From the NCBI GenBank assembly GCA_030611765.1, contig JAUWPE010000008.1, positions 1-40,866 of the forward strand: a stretch of 40,866 bases of DNA. Reading direction: 5' to 3'. Below, in pieces: positions 7,905 through 29,724 of this stretch. The stretch comes from Candidatus Cloacimonadota bacterium (GTDB lineage: Bacteria > Cloacimonadota > Cloacimonadia > JGIOTU-2). A program made the translations under genes and the position numbers. The first letter of the stretch is position 1. Each line of letters opens with the position of its first letter. Under the pieces are notes generated by a model. The model had not been told where the DNA came from, searched no databases, and saw only the letters and a program-made list of their open reading frames with translations.

Positions 7905-7960
7905 TTCTGAATCTGTGTCGATCAGCTTCATCAGCGTTAATCTGCGTTCTATTTTTAAAT
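7905..7960. repeat. GCAGATTAAC-type intergenic repeat (reverse orientation)
   Basis: TTTTCTGAATCTGTGTCGATCAGCTTCATCAGCGTTAATCTGCGTTCTATTTTT, related to 11799-12085 and 31895-31945. Confidence 0.75.
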
Positions 7961-8059
7961 TTTCTGAGCTCAGTCCGACTGCTCAAAAAACCACATAAAA
8001 TTGACATGCATAGAATCACTTTGGAAATCTATCCAAGCTGAGAAGTATCTCAAAATAAT

Positions 8060-10048
8060 ATGAACAAGAAATTTGACCCGAAACAAAATTATGCCGAAAG
8101 CATGAAGCGAGTGGGCTATATCACAAGAGAAAAAGCCACTCCAAAAGACTATGCAAAAATGGGATTTAAAAGCGGATTGGAAGTCCACCAGCAGTTGAAA
8201 ACTGAGGAGAAACTCTTCTGCCGATGTCCTGCAGGAATATATCATAACTTGCAAGATTATGATGCCGAACTTATACGTCACATGCGTCCCACACTTTCAG
8301 AAATGGGCACTTATGACGGCACTGCACTGATGGAATTCCGCACTCGCAAAAATATAAGATATTACATCAAAAATGAAACCACCTGCACCTACGATGTTGA
8401 TGACACACCGCCCTTTCCAATTAATAGAGAAGCCCTCGAATATGCGATTGAAATATCTTTGCTGATGCATCAAAACATTGTTGGCGAACTGCACATTACT
8501 CGCAAACAGTATCTCGACGGCAGCATTCCAACCGGTTTTCAGCGAACTGCGATCGTGGGCATTGAAGGAAAAATTCCGCTCAAACATAAAAATGTCCGCA
8601 TCATTCAGCTCAGCATAGAAGAAGATGCCTGCCGCGAGGTTTCTGACATTGGTCATGAAAGGATATATACAACTGACCGGCTCGGAATTCCGCTTATCGA
8701 GACAGTGACATATCCCGAACTTTTCACTCCGGATGAAGTAATGGAAGCAGGACAGGTTATCAGATTCATAAATAGAAGCTCCGGTAAAGTACGTGTTGGT
8801 ATTGGAGCAGGCAGGCAGGATGTGAATGTCAGTATCACCGGCGGAACACGAGTTGAAATTAAAGGCGTTTCCCGTATCAAATGGATAGCAAAACTTACAC
8901 ATAATGAAACATTTCGTCAGAAAGCATTGCTGGAAATCAAAAAGGAATTGCATAGCAGAATTAAATATCCAAAGAAGTGGAAACCCACCTTCAAAGCAAT
9001 TACCTTTGATGTGTCCGATATCGAGTACCAGCCCATAAAAGAAGCAATGGACAAGGGATGTAAGCTCATTGCCTGCAAACTGCCTGAGTTCAAAGGAATA
9101 CTCTCTTTCTTCCTGCAGCCCGGGAAAACCTTTGCTGATGAGCTGGAAGGTCGATTGAAGGTTATTGCATGTCTTGAGAAACCGAATATGGTGCATTCTG
9201 AGGATATGAATCCTGTGTTTAATGAGGATATGCTAAAAAAGCGAAGCAAATTGTTAAAAAGCGGTGAGAATGATGCACAGATCGTGTTCTGGGCTCCTGA
9301 AGAGGATGTCAAAACTGCGATGGAAACCATTGAGGAGCGCTGCAGAATGGCTTTTGAAGGCGTGCCCAACGAAACAAGAAAAGCTCTCAATGACGGAACA
9401 ACAATTTTTGAGAGAGTTTTACCCGGCGCTGATAGAATGTATCCTGATACGGATTCCGCTCCAATTCCTATCAAAGATGAGTATATTGAGGAAATTGGTA
9501 AGTCGCTTCCTGTTAGTTTGAAGAAGCGAATGGAGCAGCTAAAAAAATGGCATATTCCTGAAGATTGCTATTATTACATTCTCAGAAATGATCTGATGCC
9601 CTTGCTGGAACGGATGATCAAAGAACTAAAGGTTTCTCCAAAATGGATTGGAACACTTTTCGGGCATACACTCAAGCATATAGAAGGTCAGTACAATTCA
9701 TCAGTTCCATTTGAATATGAGCGGGTGTACGAGTTGATAGAATTCCTTCAAAAAGAGCAAATTGATCTTGATATTCTTTCCTTGATGCTTGAGATTCTCT
9801 ATGTGTATCCACGTATGGAATTTGAGTCGATACTCAATCTTGTGAAATTTAAAAGGCAAGAGAAGAACGAAATCCTCAACGACATTCCAAGCTTATGTTC
9901 AATGTTCAATGAGATCGGCGGATCTGCCAATTCCGATGCAGAGAAAAAATGGATAATGGGGCATCTGCGAGCTATTGCTTTGGGGAATATGCCGCTCAAG
10001 GAGCTTCATCAGGCAGTACAGAAAATTCTGCAGGGAGATGAGCTATGA
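8060..10048 (+). CDS. gatE: archaeal-type glutamyl-tRNA(Gln) amidotransferase subunit E
   Basis: GFKSGLEVHQQLKTEEKLFCRCP; YDVDDTPPFPINREALEYAIEISLLM; KQYLDGSIPTGFQRTAIVGIEG; RVGIGAGRQDVNVSITGGTRVEIKGVSRIKWI; length 662 aa fits GatE (GatB-like core plus insert). Confidence 0.95.
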   Translation: MNKKFDPKQNYAESMKRVGYITREKATPKDYAKMGFKSGLEVHQQLKTEEKLFCRCPAGIYHNLQDYDAELIRHMRPTLSEMGTYDGTALMEFRTRKNIRYYIKNETTCTYDVDDTPPFPINREALEYAIEISLLMHQNIVGELHITRKQYLDGSIPTGFQRTAIVGIEGKIPLKHKNVRIIQLSIEEDACREVSDIGHERIYTTDRLGIPLIETVTYPELFTPDEVMEAGQVIRFINRSSGKVRVGIGAGRQDVNVSITGGTRVEIKGVSRIKWIAKLTHNETFRQKALLEIKKELHSRIKYPKKWKPTFKAITFDVSDIEYQPIKEAMDKGCKLIACKLPEFKGILSFFLQPGKTFADELEGRLKVIACLEKPNMVHSEDMNPVFNEDMLKKRSKLLKSGENDAQIVFWAPEEDVKTAMETIEERCRMAFEGVPNETRKALNDGTTIFERVLPGADRMYPDTDSAPIPIKDEYIEEIGKSLPVSLKKRMEQLKKWHIPEDCYYYILRNDLMPLLERMIKELKVSPKWIGTLFGHTLKHIEGQYNSSVPFEYERVYELIEFLQKEQIDLDILSLMLEILYVYPRMEFESILNLVKFKRQEKNEILNDIPSLCSMFNEIGGSANSDAEKKWIMGHLRAIALGNMPLKELHQAVQKILQGDEL

Positions 10049-11427
10049 TAGATATATTTAAAGGTTATAAAGGACAGTCGCTCTCGGTTTTGAAGAATTT
10101 CAAGGTTCGTGTATGGAGCGATGCTGAGATATCAACAACTCGAGGAAATTTCAAGGGGATCATTCTACCGCGCTCAGAAAATGACGATGATCTGCATATT
10201 GTGCTCAAACTTGCCACCGGCTACAATGTAGGAGTCGATGTGAATACGATCACCGATATGAAAGAGATCGGCTATAAAGAAGCTCATTATAAAATTCCTG
10301 AAAAAGAATTTCCTTTTACAGAAGGCAAACCGAATATAAAACTCTTAGGCACCGGCGGCACGATCGCTTCACGATTGGATTATAGAACCGGTGCGGTCAT
10401 TCCTGCATTTTCTCCGGGTGAGCTTTATGGCGCAGTTCCGGAACTTGCCGATATTTGCAATTTGCAGACCGAAAAACTTTTTGCGGTTTTCAGTGAGAAT
10501 ATGGGACCCGATCAATATAAAAAGCTCGCAATTACGATCGGAAAAGAGATTGAAAAGGGCATAGACGGCATTGTGATCGGGCATGGCACAGATACGCTTC
10601 ATCATACTGCTGCAGCACTTTCTTTTATGATACAAAACTCACCCGTTCCTATTGTGCTGGTGGGCTCGCAACGTTCATCGGACAGGCCTTCTTCCGATGC
10701 AGCTCTGAATCTCATCCACGCAACAACCACTGCTGCCACGTCTGATATTGCAGAAGTTCTGGTTTGTATGTTCGGTCCTACATCCGATGAGTATGGCTTG
10801 CTGCACAGGGGAACTCGTGTGAGAAAGATGCACTCGTCCTATCGCTCGACTTTCAGAACAATAGGGGATGTACCGCTTGCAACAGTTACTCGTGATGGTG
10901 TTGTGCTGATAAAAAATGATTATAATCACAGACGCAAAGATAAAAATGTTACGATTCTTCCTTACTTTGAAGAAAAGGTGGCGTTGCTCTATTACTATCC
11001 CAATATGCAGCCCGATATGATATACTCGATCATCGATAATGGTTACAAAGGAATTATCATAGCAGGAACAGGATTAGGGCATGTGAATAAACCGCTTTAT
11101 CCTGCCATCAAGAAGTGCAAAGAAAAGGGCATTCCTGTTTATATGACTGTGCAGACTCTGTGGGGTTATGTGCACATGTTCGTGTATGATACAGGACGTG
11201 ATCTGATGAGTTATGGAATTATTCCGGCAGAAAATATGCTTCCTGAAGTTGCTTATATCAAGCTTGGCTGGGCGCTCGGGCAGACCAATGATCCTGAAAA
11301 AGTAAAAGAGATCATGCTTACACCAATTGCCGATGATATTACTAAACGGGAGCCCTATAACGGTTATCTTATTTATCAGGGTGGCATTCCGGAAGTGGAA
11401 GAATTTATTAAGAAAGTGCATAAATAA
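10045..11427 (+). CDS. gatD: archaeal-type glutamyl-tRNA(Gln) amidotransferase subunit D (asparaginase-like)
   Basis: N-terminal GatD-type domain, then LLGTGGTIASRLDYRTGAVIPAFSPGEL, IVIGHGTDTLHHTAAALSF, VLVGSQRSSDRPSSDAALNL; ATGA overlap with gatE. Confidence 0.95.
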   Translation: MIDIFKGYKGQSLSVLKNFKVRVWSDAEISTTRGNFKGIILPRSENDDDLHIVLKLATGYNVGVDVNTITDMKEIGYKEAHYKIPEKEFPFTEGKPNIKLLGTGGTIASRLDYRTGAVIPAFSPGELYGAVPELADICNLQTEKLFAVFSENMGPDQYKKLAITIGKEIEKGIDGIVIGHGTDTLHHTAAALSFMIQNSPVPIVLVGSQRSSDRPSSDAALNLIHATTTAATSDIAEVLVCMFGPTSDEYGLLHRGTRVRKMHSSYRSTFRTIGDVPLATVTRDGVVLIKNDYNHRRKDKNVTILPYFEEKVALLYYYPNMQPDMIYSIIDNGYKGIIIAGTGLGHVNKPLYPAIKKCKEKGIPVYMTVQTLWGYVHMFVYDTGRDLMSYGIIPAENMLPEVAYIKLGWALGQTNDPEKVKEIMLTPIADDITKREPYNGYLIYQGGIPEVEEFIKKVHK

Positions 11428-11479
11428 AAGCAAGCACTGCGACTAATGGAACGTAGATATATGGCAGATACAGAAATTG

Positions 11480-12150
11480 AATTATTTTACCACAGAGGGC
11501 ACAGAGAAACACAGAGATAAAAACAACCGAGAAGAAAAGCGAAGAGAGAAGAGCGAGGAAAGAATAAAAATCACGATCCGACTTCATATCAACTATCGGG
11601 ACGAAGCTGTGGCAAGGCAGTCTCCGTTACAATACACCTTGGTATGCAGAGAACACAGAGAAATTTCCACTTGTGACAAGGTAATTCCATGTAAAAAGGA
11701 CATGTCATTCCCTCGAAAGAGGGAATCCAGTATTTTCGCATTCTCTGAACTCCATTGCCTGCTGGCTGATGAAGTCCAGGAATGAATTAATGAGACCCAG
11801 ACCACTCAGATTGGACAGATTTACGCAGATTAAGGGTTCAATATATTCTCTTCTTTATTATATTTTCTGAATCCGTGTTAATCCGTGTGCAATTTTCTTT
11901 TTTTTATAGCACGCAGACCCACGCAGATTGAACTGATTCTCGCAGATTAAGAATTAAATATATTTTCTTCTTTATTATATTTTCTGGATCAGTGTTAATC
12001 AGTATCATCAGCGTTAATCTGTGTTCCATCTTCTTTTTTTAATAGAACGCAGACCCACGCAGATTGGACAGATTTACGCAGATATAAATATTGAATTATT
12101 GCTCAACATTTTTGATATATTATTTTCAATCTTTCTCGGTGCTCTCTGTG
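11480..12150. repeat. dense block of interspersed repeats (CACAGAG, MSFPRKRESS-type, GCAGATT palindromes)
   Basis: ccacagagggcacagagaaacacagagataaaaa; tgtcattccctcgaaagagggaatccagtatttt; tandem palindromic units starting acgcagattggacagatttacgcagatt and ending aatccgtgttaatccgtgt. Confidence 0.85.
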
Positions 12151-14113: not shown

Positions 14114-14551
14114 TTACAAATATTCCGGATGATTTTGATTGAGCCAGGTAATAACTTCTTGTTTAAATGATGAAACAAAATCTACTAACTCTACAGCTTC
14201 TTGTGAGGTTACTCCACCAGCACAATCGTATTCTACGATGTTTCTTTTAGTTCGGCAAGTATTCAGATATTCTGCATCCAAACGTTTTGAATCACCTAAA
14301 ATTATCGGCATAGCCATAATCGTACGATAATGCTGCAGGTTGTTTTCTGCCTGATAACCAGAAGTATATAAGAGAATTGTACATAATTTGAGAGCCGCAT
14401 TATAGGCAATGCCAAACTGCCAATCGAGAGATATACTTTCTTTAGCATCATGAAGATCCCGATCGACAATATTAAGTAGATTGTTGATTTCCTGTTTGCT
14501 GGTGGAATGATGTTTTAACCAGCCGTTACTTAACCAACTTTGTAAACTCAT
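14114..14551 (-). CDS. HEPN domain protein (putative toxin of MNT/HEPN pair)
   Basis: 145-aa alpha-helical protein; SISLDWQFGIAYNAALKLCTILLYTSGYQ...HYRTIMAMP...LNTCRTKRNIVEYDCAGGVTSQEAVELVDFVSSFKQEV; overlaps the upstream MNT ORF. Confidence 0.8.
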   Translation of the reverse strand: MSLQSWLSNGWLKHHSTSKQEINNLLNIVDRDLHDAKESISLDWQFGIAYNAALKLCTILLYTSGYQAENNLQHYRTIMAMPIILGDSKRLDAEYLNTCRTKRNIVEYDCAGGVTSQEAVELVDFVSSFKQEVITWLNQNHPEYL

Positions 14552-15110
14552 CTTCTGTTCCTGTAATAAATATTTTATCTGAATTTATAATATTTGAAAT
14601 GAAATGGTCATCTGAATTTACTCTATTAATAAATTCTAATTTACTGATAACTTGCGGGTTGATCTCTCTGCCTGTTTTGTCTGAAATACCATGAAGTAGT
14701 GATAAAATTTTTCGTAAACCAATATCTCCAATAACAAACAGGTCAATATCACTATGAGATTTTTGTTTTCCTGAAGCAAGGGAACCAAAAAGGAAAGCAA
14801 ATTCGATTGCTGTGGATTGAGAAAGAGCTTCTTTCAATAAAAAAACTAAACCCACTGTTTTTTGGACAATATTACTAATATCCTGGTAAATTGGGTTTTC
14901 TTTATTTGCATGATAATAAGTGCGATTACCATCTTTTGTTTTATAAATAAGATCAAGCTTTACTAATTTACTTAACTCTCTTTGAACCGTACCGATGGTA
15001 AAACCTGATTTGCGTTCGATCTCACGCATATGTAACGCAGCATTATCAGACCCAAAAAGAAGTCTGAATATTTCAGTTCTGACCTTGGAAGATAAAATTT
15101 CAGCAAGCAT
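14526..15110 (-). CDS. winged-HTH/nucleotidyltransferase (MNT) fusion protein, putative antitoxin
   Basis: MLAEILSSKVRTEIFRLLFGSDNAALHMREIERKSGFTIGTVQRELSKLVKLDLI (wHTH) then AFLFGSLASGKQKSHSDIDLFVIGD (MNT GS...DxD). Start set at the inner Met at 15110; the ORF track start at 15128 lies in the palindrome. Confidence 0.85.
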   Translation of the reverse strand: MLAEILSSKVRTEIFRLLFGSDNAALHMREIERKSGFTIGTVQRELSKLVKLDLIYKTKDGNRTYYHANKENPIYQDISNIVQKTVGLVFLLKEALSQSTAIEFAFLFGSLASGKQKSHSDIDLFVIGDIGLRKILSLLHGISDKTGREINPQVISKLEFINRVNSDDHFISNIINSDKIFITGTEDEFTKLVK

Positions 15111-15124
15111 ATTGTATCCTTTTT

Positions 15125-15154
15125 GCATACATCTGTATGCTTATTTCATACAAA
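15125..15154 (-). promoter_or_regulatory. putative autoregulatory operator of the wHTH-MNT/HEPN pair
   Basis: Minus strand GTATGAAATAAGCATACAGATGTATGC: alternating GTATG/CATAC half-sites; includes perfect GCATAC-atct-GTATGC (15125-15140). Confidence 0.5.
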
Positions 15155-15436: not shown

Positions 15437-17389
15437 TTACTCTTTATCAAAATGCTTATCAATATAACTTTTTTTATAATCTGAGAAAATTTTCATATTA
15501 GGGACTGAAGCTTTCTTGAAAATGCAGTATGAAACAACAACAAGCAATAAACCACTGAGTGCCCATTTTGTTATAGTAAAACCTATTACTAAAGTTGCAA
15601 TTATTATAAAAAATTCAAGAATTGGTAAAGGATGTTTAAGGTAACTGAATCTAATTTTCCATTTGTGTTTCAACCAATAATTTTTTCTTTTTAGGTTATT
15701 TTTTTCCTCAATTGATTTACTATTCTTCTTAGTTAAATCGTGAACCTCATTCTTAAGGTTATTGATTGTATGTTTATTATTTTTATTTGTTTTATTTAAT
15801 TTTTCTATTTCTTTTTTAAATGGTGCCTTAATTTTTTCATTTAATTCCTTTTCGATTTCAAGTACTGTTTTTGAAGTAAATAAATTTGGATCTCCTAATG
15901 TTTTATCTACAAGCATTCTCTCTACTTCCTTTGACTCTATTAGATGATATGCACTTTCTTCTGTAATAGCTCTATCATCTTTACATTGCTCAACAATTTC
16001 AATTAATCTATCTTTCAAGGCATCACTTGGTTTAATAGCATTGTAGCAACTTGCAATGAATTTTTCTTTGTTAAATTCAATCTTTTTATGTGAATTTATC
16101 CACAATACTGTTCCTAAGAAAACATCAGTTATACAAGCAGGTAATTCTTTTCGTCTTTCCTTTTCAAGATTATTATATTTGATATTTGCTTTAATCAAAC
16201 CGTAATTTGTTGTAAGAAATATATTCTTAGCTTCTCTAGTTAGTTTCGGTGAATTATTTTTTCTCAAATGATATATTGCAACAATAGAATCCTTATCATT
16301 TTTTATAGTAGTACTTAATTCCGATAAATAGTCATGAAACTCATTTCTTATCAATTCCTCTAACTTGGAGCTATCAATTTGAAAATCTTTATTCAATAGA
16401 TGGGATGGTTTTTCAACAATCTCAAATTCTGAGAGCAATGATTTTAAAGAATCCCTAATATTTTTTACCTGATCAGCAGAATAACCGAGATATTTATAAT
16501 TTTTCGCTGTCAAATTTGCATTTCTATAATCAAATATATTAGCTTCTAAAGCATTGATAGCTATTTCTAAATTTGAAATAACTTCATTATAACTATGCTT
16601 GAATATTTTGATTCTTCCACCGTTTTCAATTATACTATCAATTAAAATTTTAACAGAGTTTTCTTTATGTTCACCATCAGTACCTATATAGTGAAAAATC
16701 AAGGGTGTATCAAAAAATAAATTACAATCTTTTACTGTATCTTGAGAAAAATCATAATCCTCAATAGTTATTGTTGATGCTAATATATGACCAAAAGAAA
16801 TATTGGATAAGTATTTGAAACAATCATCATTATCTTCATAGCTATCAACTATAAAACAGTTTAAAGCTTGTTCATATTTTCTAAATTTTTTGGTTAAATG
16901 GAAACTATCAGCTATAAGTGAATGATTAGTATCTTGAATCAAAAGTTCAATATCATTATTTTTCAGAAATTTAAGCAAAACCTCATCGATTTCATCATCA
17001 GTAATTGGAAGATTGAACTTTTCTGAACAATATTTCTTAAAACGATATTGAAAATTTTTGTTTTGTTTAGTTGAAACACTTTGTTCATTTGAAAAATCTA
17101 AATCGTAGGCAACAGTATCATTAACAATAAAAGACTTTTGGTATTTTGTTAACAAATTATATTTTTGTGCTTTTCTTAAAATCGCAGTCATTGCTTGAGG
17201 AGTTATCCTAAGTCCAAATTCAATTAAGAATTTATCACAAAATTCATTAACTTGATCTTCACTTAATGCAGCAATTTTATCTTTAACAAACAAAGTAGCT
17301 ACAAATGGTGTAAAAATTTCTAAATAATTCTTTTTATCTCTAGTATTTAAAGTAGATAAAATCGCAAAAGAAGTAACTGCTCTTCTCAT
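15437..17389 (-). CDS. PIN-like domain protein with N-terminal wHTH-like region, coiled coil and C-terminal TM segments
   Basis: 650 aa; RBS AGAGGTGAT. Acidic motifs spaced as in PIN nucleases: FFDTPLI (D227), HSYNEV (E269), NDKDSIVAI (D365/D367), IFLTTNYGLI (N395), ITDVFLG (D422). Coiled coil about 510-570; two hydrophobic segments about 590-624. Confidence 0.6.
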   Translation of the reverse strand: MRRAVTSFAILSTLNTRDKKNYLEIFTPFVATLFVKDKIAALSEDQVNEFCDKFLIEFGLRITPQAMTAILRKAQKYNLLTKYQKSFIVNDTVAYDLDFSNEQSVSTKQNKNFQYRFKKYCSEKFNLPITDDEIDEVLLKFLKNNDIELLIQDTNHSLIADSFHLTKKFRKYEQALNCFIVDSYEDNDDCFKYLSNISFGHILASTITIEDYDFSQDTVKDCNLFFDTPLIFHYIGTDGEHKENSVKILIDSIIENGGRIKIFKHSYNEVISNLEIAINALEANIFDYRNANLTAKNYKYLGYSADQVKNIRDSLKSLLSEFEIVEKPSHLLNKDFQIDSSKLEELIRNEFHDYLSELSTTIKNDKDSIVAIYHLRKNNSPKLTREAKNIFLTTNYGLIKANIKYNNLEKERRKELPACITDVFLGTVLWINSHKKIEFNKEKFIASCYNAIKPSDALKDRLIEIVEQCKDDRAITEESAYHLIESKEVERMLVDKTLGDPNLFTSKTVLEIEKELNEKIKAPFKKEIEKLNKTNKNNKHTINNLKNEVHDLTKKNSKSIEEKNNLKRKNYWLKHKWKIRFSYLKHPLPILEFFIIIATLVIGFTITKWALSGLLLVVVSYCIFKKASVPNMKIFSDYKKSYIDKHFDKE

Positions 17390-28399: not shown

Positions 28400-29724
28400 C
28401 ACTAGTGTCGCGTTATAAATCCCACAGGCACAGCTGGTTAGAAGAACAGCCTTCTGTGTTTTGTAACGCCGTATCTGTAAGTAGCTGATATAAAGGCAGT
28501 TTCTCAAAAAGGGAAACACTGATAATTTGTAGAATTGTGTAAAGACTCAAACTAATTTTGAGACTTTTTTTAATTATTGCTACTACCACATATGTACTGA
28601 TTGCTATCCAAATTTGAGTTTTTACAGCGTTGGCCGATGTTCCGAAAAATGACTTTATCTTTAGATGTTGTTTTATCCATTTAAAGAATAATTCTATTTT
28701 CCATCGGTTACGATATAACTCTGCAACCATCATTGCTGATATATCGAAATTATTAGTAAGGAAAACAAAATATTTATCATTTTCCGAATCATAATATTTT
28801 ACTCTTCGTAATTTATCCGGATAATGTTGTTTTGATTTGTAACCGGTGAATTTTACAATCTGATCACAACGTAATCCTGTTATTTTATCTACATGACTGG
28901 AATAAAGCCGTCTGAATTTTAGGTTCTTTTTTGCTCGAATAATAAAGAATGCTTTAGCTTGTTCGAAACAATAAAGCCTCTCATAATCAAGATAACCTCT
29001 ATCCATAATATAATAAGAACCGGGTTCGGGAAGTAGAACATCCAAGATGTTTACATCATGAATCAAGCCAGTTGTAATATCAATAAATGAAGGTATTGAC
29101 CCTCGAATATCCAACAATGTATGTAGTTTAATAGCGGCTTTATTTTTTCTGAATTTAGCCCAGGGAAATAATGACAGACATAAATCAATGGTTGTAAAAT
29201 CCAGAGCATAAATGGTATTTTCAATATCAAGTAAAAAATCAGAATCATCCTTATAAAGAGCTCGAGCTTTCGAAATCAATACTTGAGCAAAATCTGCATA
29301 GACACGCCAATCTCTGTTTTCATTCGCACGAGACAAGTTTGAAATAGATACATTACCCTTTATGCCCATGTGATACAGTTTGTTTGGTTGAGCATTCAGA
29401 CAAGCATCAATATCCCTCAAACTATCCCGATAACTTAACTGGGCAAAGCTCATACAAAGAAATTGATCCCAACATTTGAAATTACGTGTACGGTAATTAC
29501 CACCATATCTCTCTACGCATTTGTCGAACTTATACTTCGGAATAAAATCCATAATTTGAGAAAAAATTGTTTTGCTCATGTGCTATCCTTTGTTTGATAT
29601 TTAAATAACACATAAGGGTAAATAAAAATTCAAAGTCAAAATCGATTGATTTTTTCATAGCACTTAACTCTACAAGACAACAGATGTTACACGTTTTTAA
29701 TGACACCTTAACGCGACACTAGTG
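28400..29724 (-). mobile_element. IS4-family-like insertion sequence, 1325 bp, apparently intact
   Basis: 16-bp perfect terminal inverted repeats CACTAGTGTCGCGTTA (28400-28415) / TAACGCGACACTAGTG (29709-29724), flanked by 9-bp direct repeats ACAGAAGTA (28391-28399 and 29725-29733). Confidence 0.96.
28413..29579 (-). CDS. IS4-like DDE transposase with DUF4372-like N-terminus
   Basis: MSKTIFSQIMDFIPKYKFDKCVERYGGNYRTRNFKCWDQFLCMSFAQLSYRDSLRDIDACL; YALDFTTIDLCLSLF, YYIMDRGYLDYERL, LYRNRWKIELFFKWIKQHLKIKSFFGTS. Confidence 0.95.
   Translation of the reverse strand: MSKTIFSQIMDFIPKYKFDKCVERYGGNYRTRNFKCWDQFLCMSFAQLSYRDSLRDIDACLNAQPNKLYHMGIKGNVSISNLSRANENRDWRVYADFAQVLISKARALYKDDSDFLLDIENTIYALDFTTIDLCLSLFPWAKFRKNKAAIKLHTLLDIRGSIPSFIDITTGLIHDVNILDVLLPEPGSYYIMDRGYLDYERLYCFEQAKAFFIIRAKKNLKFRRLYSSHVDKITGLRCDQIVKFTGYKSKQHYPDKLRRVKYYDSENDKYFVFLTNNFDISAMMVAELYRNRWKIELFFKWIKQHLKIKSFFGTSANAVKTQIWIAISTYVVVAIIKKSLKISLSLYTILQIISVSLFEKLPLYQLLTDTALQNTEGCSSNQLCLWDL

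Follow-up and report, generated by a model that had tools for sequence, protein, structure and literature searches.

An intact pair of adjacent genes, gatE and gatD, encodes a GatDE-type amidotransferase in the genome of a bacterium of the phylum Cloacimonadota; the pair lies in the window, the whole stretch of 40,866 nucleotides that was analysed and that corresponds to contig C50 of the source genome. With a confidence of about one half, we favour the view that this is a genuine GatDE that amidates Glu-tRNA(Gln) in an accessory or corrective role, alongside GlnRS. The matches to curated models, the catalytic residues, the dN/dS ratios, the adjacency of gatE and gatD, the absence of GatA and the co-occurrence with GlnRS all count for this view. 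That the pair belongs to the GatDE family is well supported; new are the host range and the context.

gatE (8060..10048, plus strand) encodes the Glu-tRNA(Gln) amidotransferase subunit E with 662 amino acids and gatD (10045..11427, plus strand) the glutaminase subunit D with 460 amino acids, which has a GatD_N and an asparaginase-like domain. The two genes overlap in an ATGA (10045..10048, plus strand), as had been read by the first-pass annotation: at the junction, ...AGGGAGATGAGCTATGA..., the ATG of gatD takes 10045-10047 and the stop codon of gatE 10046-10048, which points to translational coupling. Within the 3′ end of gatE, a ribosome-binding-like site for gatD, AGGGAG, was read by eye (10032..10037, plus strand). 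The stretch upstream of gatE (7940..8059, plus strand) is conserved together with gatED in genomes of the same genus, where the alignments begin at 7940-8000, that is 60-120 bp upstream of gatE, and stop at gatD. It is probably a leader; no convincing promoter was seen in it.

The window GatE reached 484.7 bits with NF003107 (cut-off 456) and 413.7 bits with TIGR00134 (cut-off 319.55), the window GatD 511.6 bits with NF003217 (cut-off 310) and 501.4 bits with TIGR02153 (cut-off 324). These matches span the whole length of both proteins. The N-terminal domain of GatD was also found (PF18195 GatD_N, 45.3 vs a cut-off of 25.7), and GatB models matched the window GatE only below cut-off. The top PDB sequence matches of both subunits were GatE and GatD of 2d6f and 1zq1, the two solved archaeal GatDE structures. 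The AlphaFold model of GatE is rough (mean pLDDT 75); with this model, Foldseek returned 1zq1_C first and 2d6f next (E 2e-32 and 7e-32; TM on target 0.62-0.67), and the archaeal GatE structures ranked ahead of GatB.

In the enzyme from Methanothermobacter thermautotrophicus, we take T101, T177, D178 and K254 of GatD to be the catalytic residues and H15, E157 and E184 of GatE to be the metal or active-site residues. All of these are identical in the window (T106, T182, D183 and K261 of GatD; H43, E187 and E214 of the GatE Mg site) and throughout both alignments, each with 73 bacterial sequences. Between the window and genomes of the same genus, gatE had a dN/dS of 0.06-0.10 and gatD one of 0.01-0.04, where the values for one of these genomes (G111) are based on saturated dS; pairs with unsaturated dS gave 0.03-0.10. 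Both genes are under strong purifying selection. The source genome is a draft (2.23 Mb, 96% complete, 1.45% contamination) in 189 contigs, and the first-pass annotation had named a misassembled or archaeal contig as a possible objection. However, the gatED unit recurs in genomes of the same genus at 77-89% DNA identity and is therefore neither a chance find nor a misassembly, and in Candidatus Cloacimonadota HyVt-24 it lies on the same contig as the genes of the window's pgi region. These data, together with the low dN/dS and the intact catalytic residues, refute a contaminating sequence, a misassembly or a decaying gene relic as explanations, and we give them practically no weight.

The source genome has a single gatE and a single gatD. 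The neighbours of the pair are bacterial: typA and pgi were identified with curated profile models and a radical-SAM/RlmN-N protein with Pfam profiles, in agreement with the typA, pgi and rlmN named by the first-pass annotation. A T9SS sorting domain was found among the window products, and T9SS together with FISUMP domains is consistent with the HyVt-24 group; HyVt-24 (L104) is the nearest named relative at the gatED locus among the matches listed, and it has the same GatE sequence as the genome G111, which belongs to the window's genus. Elsewhere in the window, a 650-amino-acid ORF (15437-17389) has no Pfam or NCBIfam match and lies next to a nucleotidyltransferase gene (14526-15128); the GC content there is unusually low (26-28%), and the stretch may be a foreign insert. 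Directly 3′ of gatD, a spurious-looking ORF (11477-11785) has a translation (TTEGTEKHR, FPRKRESS) similar to dispersed repeat elements, and a transposase with DUF4372 and DDE domains is encoded at 28413-29579.

In Archaea, GatDE serves Gln-tRNA only, and its partner is a non-discriminating GluRS. The first-pass annotation had supposed that Gln-tRNA synthesis in the bacterial lineage may likewise depend on GatDE, which is not borne out. The source genome encodes a full-length GlnRS (752 bits, C103:2159-3742) adjoining its sole GluRS (577 bits, C103:3880-5295), an AsnRS, GlnA and two tRNA-Gln genes (UUG and CUG) of bacterial type, with U1 and G73 and thus not the A1-U72 and A73 of the archaeal type. 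The cell could therefore make Gln-tRNA without GatDE. GatCAB, for which a genome search had been proposed, is missing, since GatA is missing: there was no match to TIGR00132 in the source genome at E <= 0.001, in a search that picked up its positive controls. Alignment to the Thermus thermophilus enzyme revealed that the GluRS of the source genome has Arg358 (T. thermophilus numbering), a marker of discriminating GluRS that is suggestive but not proof. The paralogue search that had likewise been called for found no second GluRS in the source genome by profile, which removes a second, non-discriminating GluRS as the partner of GatDE. Amidation of Asp-tRNA(Asn) as the reason for retaining GatDE was rejected, as AsnRS is present. 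Rescue of a missing glutamine synthetase was also rejected; GlnA is present, and GatDE is no more frequent among genomes that lack GlnA. A tRNA-Asp gene is absent among the 43 tRNA matches of the source genome, probably because the draft assembly has a gap at this point.

Coexistence with GlnRS is the rule among carriers. GlnRS scored over cut-off in 39 of the 42 Cloacimonadota genomes with GatE over cut-off, and in 45 of 50 GatE-positive genomes from outside the phylum, most of them Bacteroidota. Three Cloacimonadota carriers are exceptions. G074 has GlnRS only as a fragment at a contig end, and in G051 the absence is probably an assembly gap because GluRS is missing too. In G062 (loci L030, L052 and L196), a fragmented draft that is 91% complete, gatE, gatD and GluRS were found and GlnRS was undetected; its tRNA-Gln(UUG) has A73. 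This genome is the best candidate for a true dependence on GatDE. Arg358 of GluRS was present in 19 of 21 GatDE carriers vs 18 of 20 non-carriers, so that a marker which is itself not proof gives no hint of a relaxed GluRS in carriers. The identity elements of tRNA-Gln, a further check that had been proposed, are of bacterial type, and neither 1-72 nor 73 tracks with the presence of GatDE. An archaeal-like tRNA-Gln in carriers was rejected: among tRNA-Gln(UUG) genes with a readable 3′ end, A73 was found in 12 of 31 from carriers vs 11 of 36 from non-carriers, and A1-U72 is rare in both.

These data also bear on the idea that GatDE is a full alternative route, with a sole GluRS that would be non-discriminating despite Arg358 and with GlnRS and GatDE dividing the work by conditions or isoacceptors. 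The strong selection that maintains GatDE would fit, as would G062 and a U1-C72 mismatch in tRNA-Gln(UUG) of the source genome (L095:445-519; G000:C41), where genomes of the same genus have U1-A72. However, Arg358 is retained, almost every carrier has GlnRS, the G062 assembly is a fragmented draft, and the mismatch, which might be an assembly error, was seen in a single genome. We regard a full alternative route as unlikely. Two further observations were made in this survey. G124 is the only one of the 125 Cloacimonadota genomes with GatA over cut-off (L043, G124:C7:11259-12650); its weak matches to the GatE model may be GatB, a sporadic GatCAB. AsnRS in Cloacimonadota falls into two score classes, around 630 and 450 bits, suggesting two types of the enzyme.

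GatE was found in 50 of the 125 Cloacimonadota genomes (42 over cut-off) and in 25 of 50 genera; half of the genera are without it. A scan of GTDB genomes gave at least 561 confirmed GatE stretches, and the best 80 of these loci are records from Bacteroidota, Cloacimonadota, Aminicenantota, Zixibacteria, Calditrichota, Ignavibacteriota and Acidobacteriota. In Bacteroidales, the order of Perlabentimonas gracilis (locus L154, G163), GatE scored over cut-off in 156 of 393 sampled genomes, weaker matches being left uncounted because the GatE model also responds to GatB. Most of the 80 named loci keep gatE and gatD adjacent, other neighbours vary, and no conserved partner gene beyond gatD was found across these loci.

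Sequences in the GatE tree mostly cluster according to phylum, and the data do not reject one common clade for Cloacimonadota (p-AU 0.59). With GatB as the root, one clade holds 18 bacterial GatEs (92/86) and lies next to three archaeal GatEs (100/98). The archaeal sample consists of three euryarchaeal sequences, two from the PDB and one frameshifted plasmid gene from Natrinema. The latter, in Natrinema thermotolerans (L184:2889-4332), is unannotated and apparently frameshifted after about 320 residues. By these sequences, bacterial GatE would be a separate, deep clade that includes none of the three available archaeal sequences; its identity is 31-38% to archaeal GatE and 59% on average to Bacteroidota. 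Since the tree holds only three euryarchaeal sequences, an old inter-domain transfer and a split before the domains look alike in it, and an ancient inter-domain transfer is possible.

The reading that goes back to the first proposal, in which the lineage took up the operon from archaea recently and depends on it for making Gln-tRNA, could draw on the absence of GatA and on family models that are named for Archaea. However, GlnRS is present, the distribution in bacteria is wide and clustered, and the bacterial clade is separate and distant from archaeal GatE. Within the phylum, 50 of 125 genomes and a single clade that is not rejected largely amount to the widespread vertical bacterial GatDE that had been named as speaking against this proposal. 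It is largely refuted, and we consider it very improbable. Of the first-pass annotation, the gatE-gatD operon in a bacterial genome is thus confirmed, and the interpretation holds in part.

What could a GatDE do in a cell with GlnRS? As an accessory enzyme, it would be a genuine and active heterodimer and a member of an old bacterial GatDE clade. GatD would free ammonia from glutamine (or asparagine), and GatE would activate the glutamate on tRNA-Gln with ATP and then amidate it. Glu-tRNA(Gln) arising from misacylation would thus be converted to Gln-tRNA(Gln), possibly mostly under glutamine shortage. The chemistry would follow from the conserved active sites; the substrate, the accessory role and the source of Glu-tRNA(Gln) we infer. 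GatDE would not be the sole route to Gln-tRNA(Gln) because GlnRS and an apparently discriminating GluRS are present, and a role on Asp-tRNA(Asn) is not needed because AsnRS is present. Against the accessory role speaks that no source of Glu-tRNA(Gln) is evident, as GluRS is single, with Arg358 in most carriers and non-carriers alike. Moreover, positions 1-72 and 73 of tRNA-Gln are not tied to GatDE, and half of the genera of the phylum do without it.

The main alternative is that the chemistry is the same and the substrate another one, a different misacylated tRNA or glutamate on another carrier; coexistence with GlnRS would then not be redundancy. GlnRS and the apparently discriminating GluRS leave no obvious substrate, and tRNA-Gln has not shifted towards the archaeal type. 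In addition, 34 GatE positions are near-invariant in bacteria and differ from the residue common to the two archaeal sequences used, against 96 near-invariant positions common to both, and a change of substrate is therefore conceivable. On the other hand, the 80 loci have no conserved neighbour that would point to another pathway, the full-length scores exceed the curated GatE and GatD cut-offs, and AsnRS speaks against Asp-tRNA(Asn) as a needed substrate. We hold another substrate to be possible but less probable than the accessory role. In its boldest form, for which our confidence is equally low, bulk Glu-tRNA(Gln) would not be the substrate of the bacterial GatDE clade with its members in Bacteroidota, Cloacimonadota and further phyla. 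In cells with GlnRS already in use, these enzymes would then either carry out a new amidation that depends on a tRNA or another carrier or be devoted to repairing Glu-tRNA(Gln).

According to a review from 2022, GatDE today occurs in archaea alone, and archaea have no GlnRS because their tRNA-Gln has diverged, with co-evolution of GatDE and tRNA-Gln (PMC9499178); a review from 2021 likewise restricts GatDE to archaea (PMC8007984). The hundreds of bacteria with both GatDE and GlnRS contradict the statement that GatDE is confined to archaea (PMC9499178). In the open-access literature, we found nothing on point on GatDE or GatE in Bacteroidetes or Bacteroidales. Automatic annotation may already name these genes, and the novelty is in their recognition and context, not in the protein family. 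The bacterial carriers are natural systems for testing the link between co-evolution and the lack of GlnRS, by asking how a cell copes with GatDE and GlnRS that share a tRNA, and they matter for the question of whether the last common ancestor had GatDE. Some Bacteroidales are in culture, and in this order bacterial GatDE may reveal an unrecognised function in fidelity or nitrogen stress.

Compared to the archaeal GatDE from M. thermautotrophicus (2d6f) and Pyrococcus abyssi (1zq1), both subunits are homologous over most of their length, and the bacterial pair has the same catalytic residues in GatD and metal-site residues in GatE. However, GatE identity is low, bacterial GatE stands in its own clade, and the host is a bacterium with GlnRS and a bacterial tRNA-Gln (mostly U1-A72; G73 or A73), whereas archaea are without GlnRS and their tRNA-Gln has A1-U72 and A73 (PMC9499178). 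With bacterial GatCAB, the pair has in common the GatB/GatE catalytic domain (PF02934) and the type of tRNA-dependent amidation, but the glutaminase partner is the asparaginase-like GatD instead of the amidase-type GatA. Also comparable are Bdellovibrio, Deinococcus and Thermus, which, according to a published account, have GlnRS and AsnRS and yet keep GatCAB (PMC4206432). Like the carriers described here, they have an enzyme for transamidation in addition to the synthetases of the direct route; there it is GatCAB, here it is GatDE.
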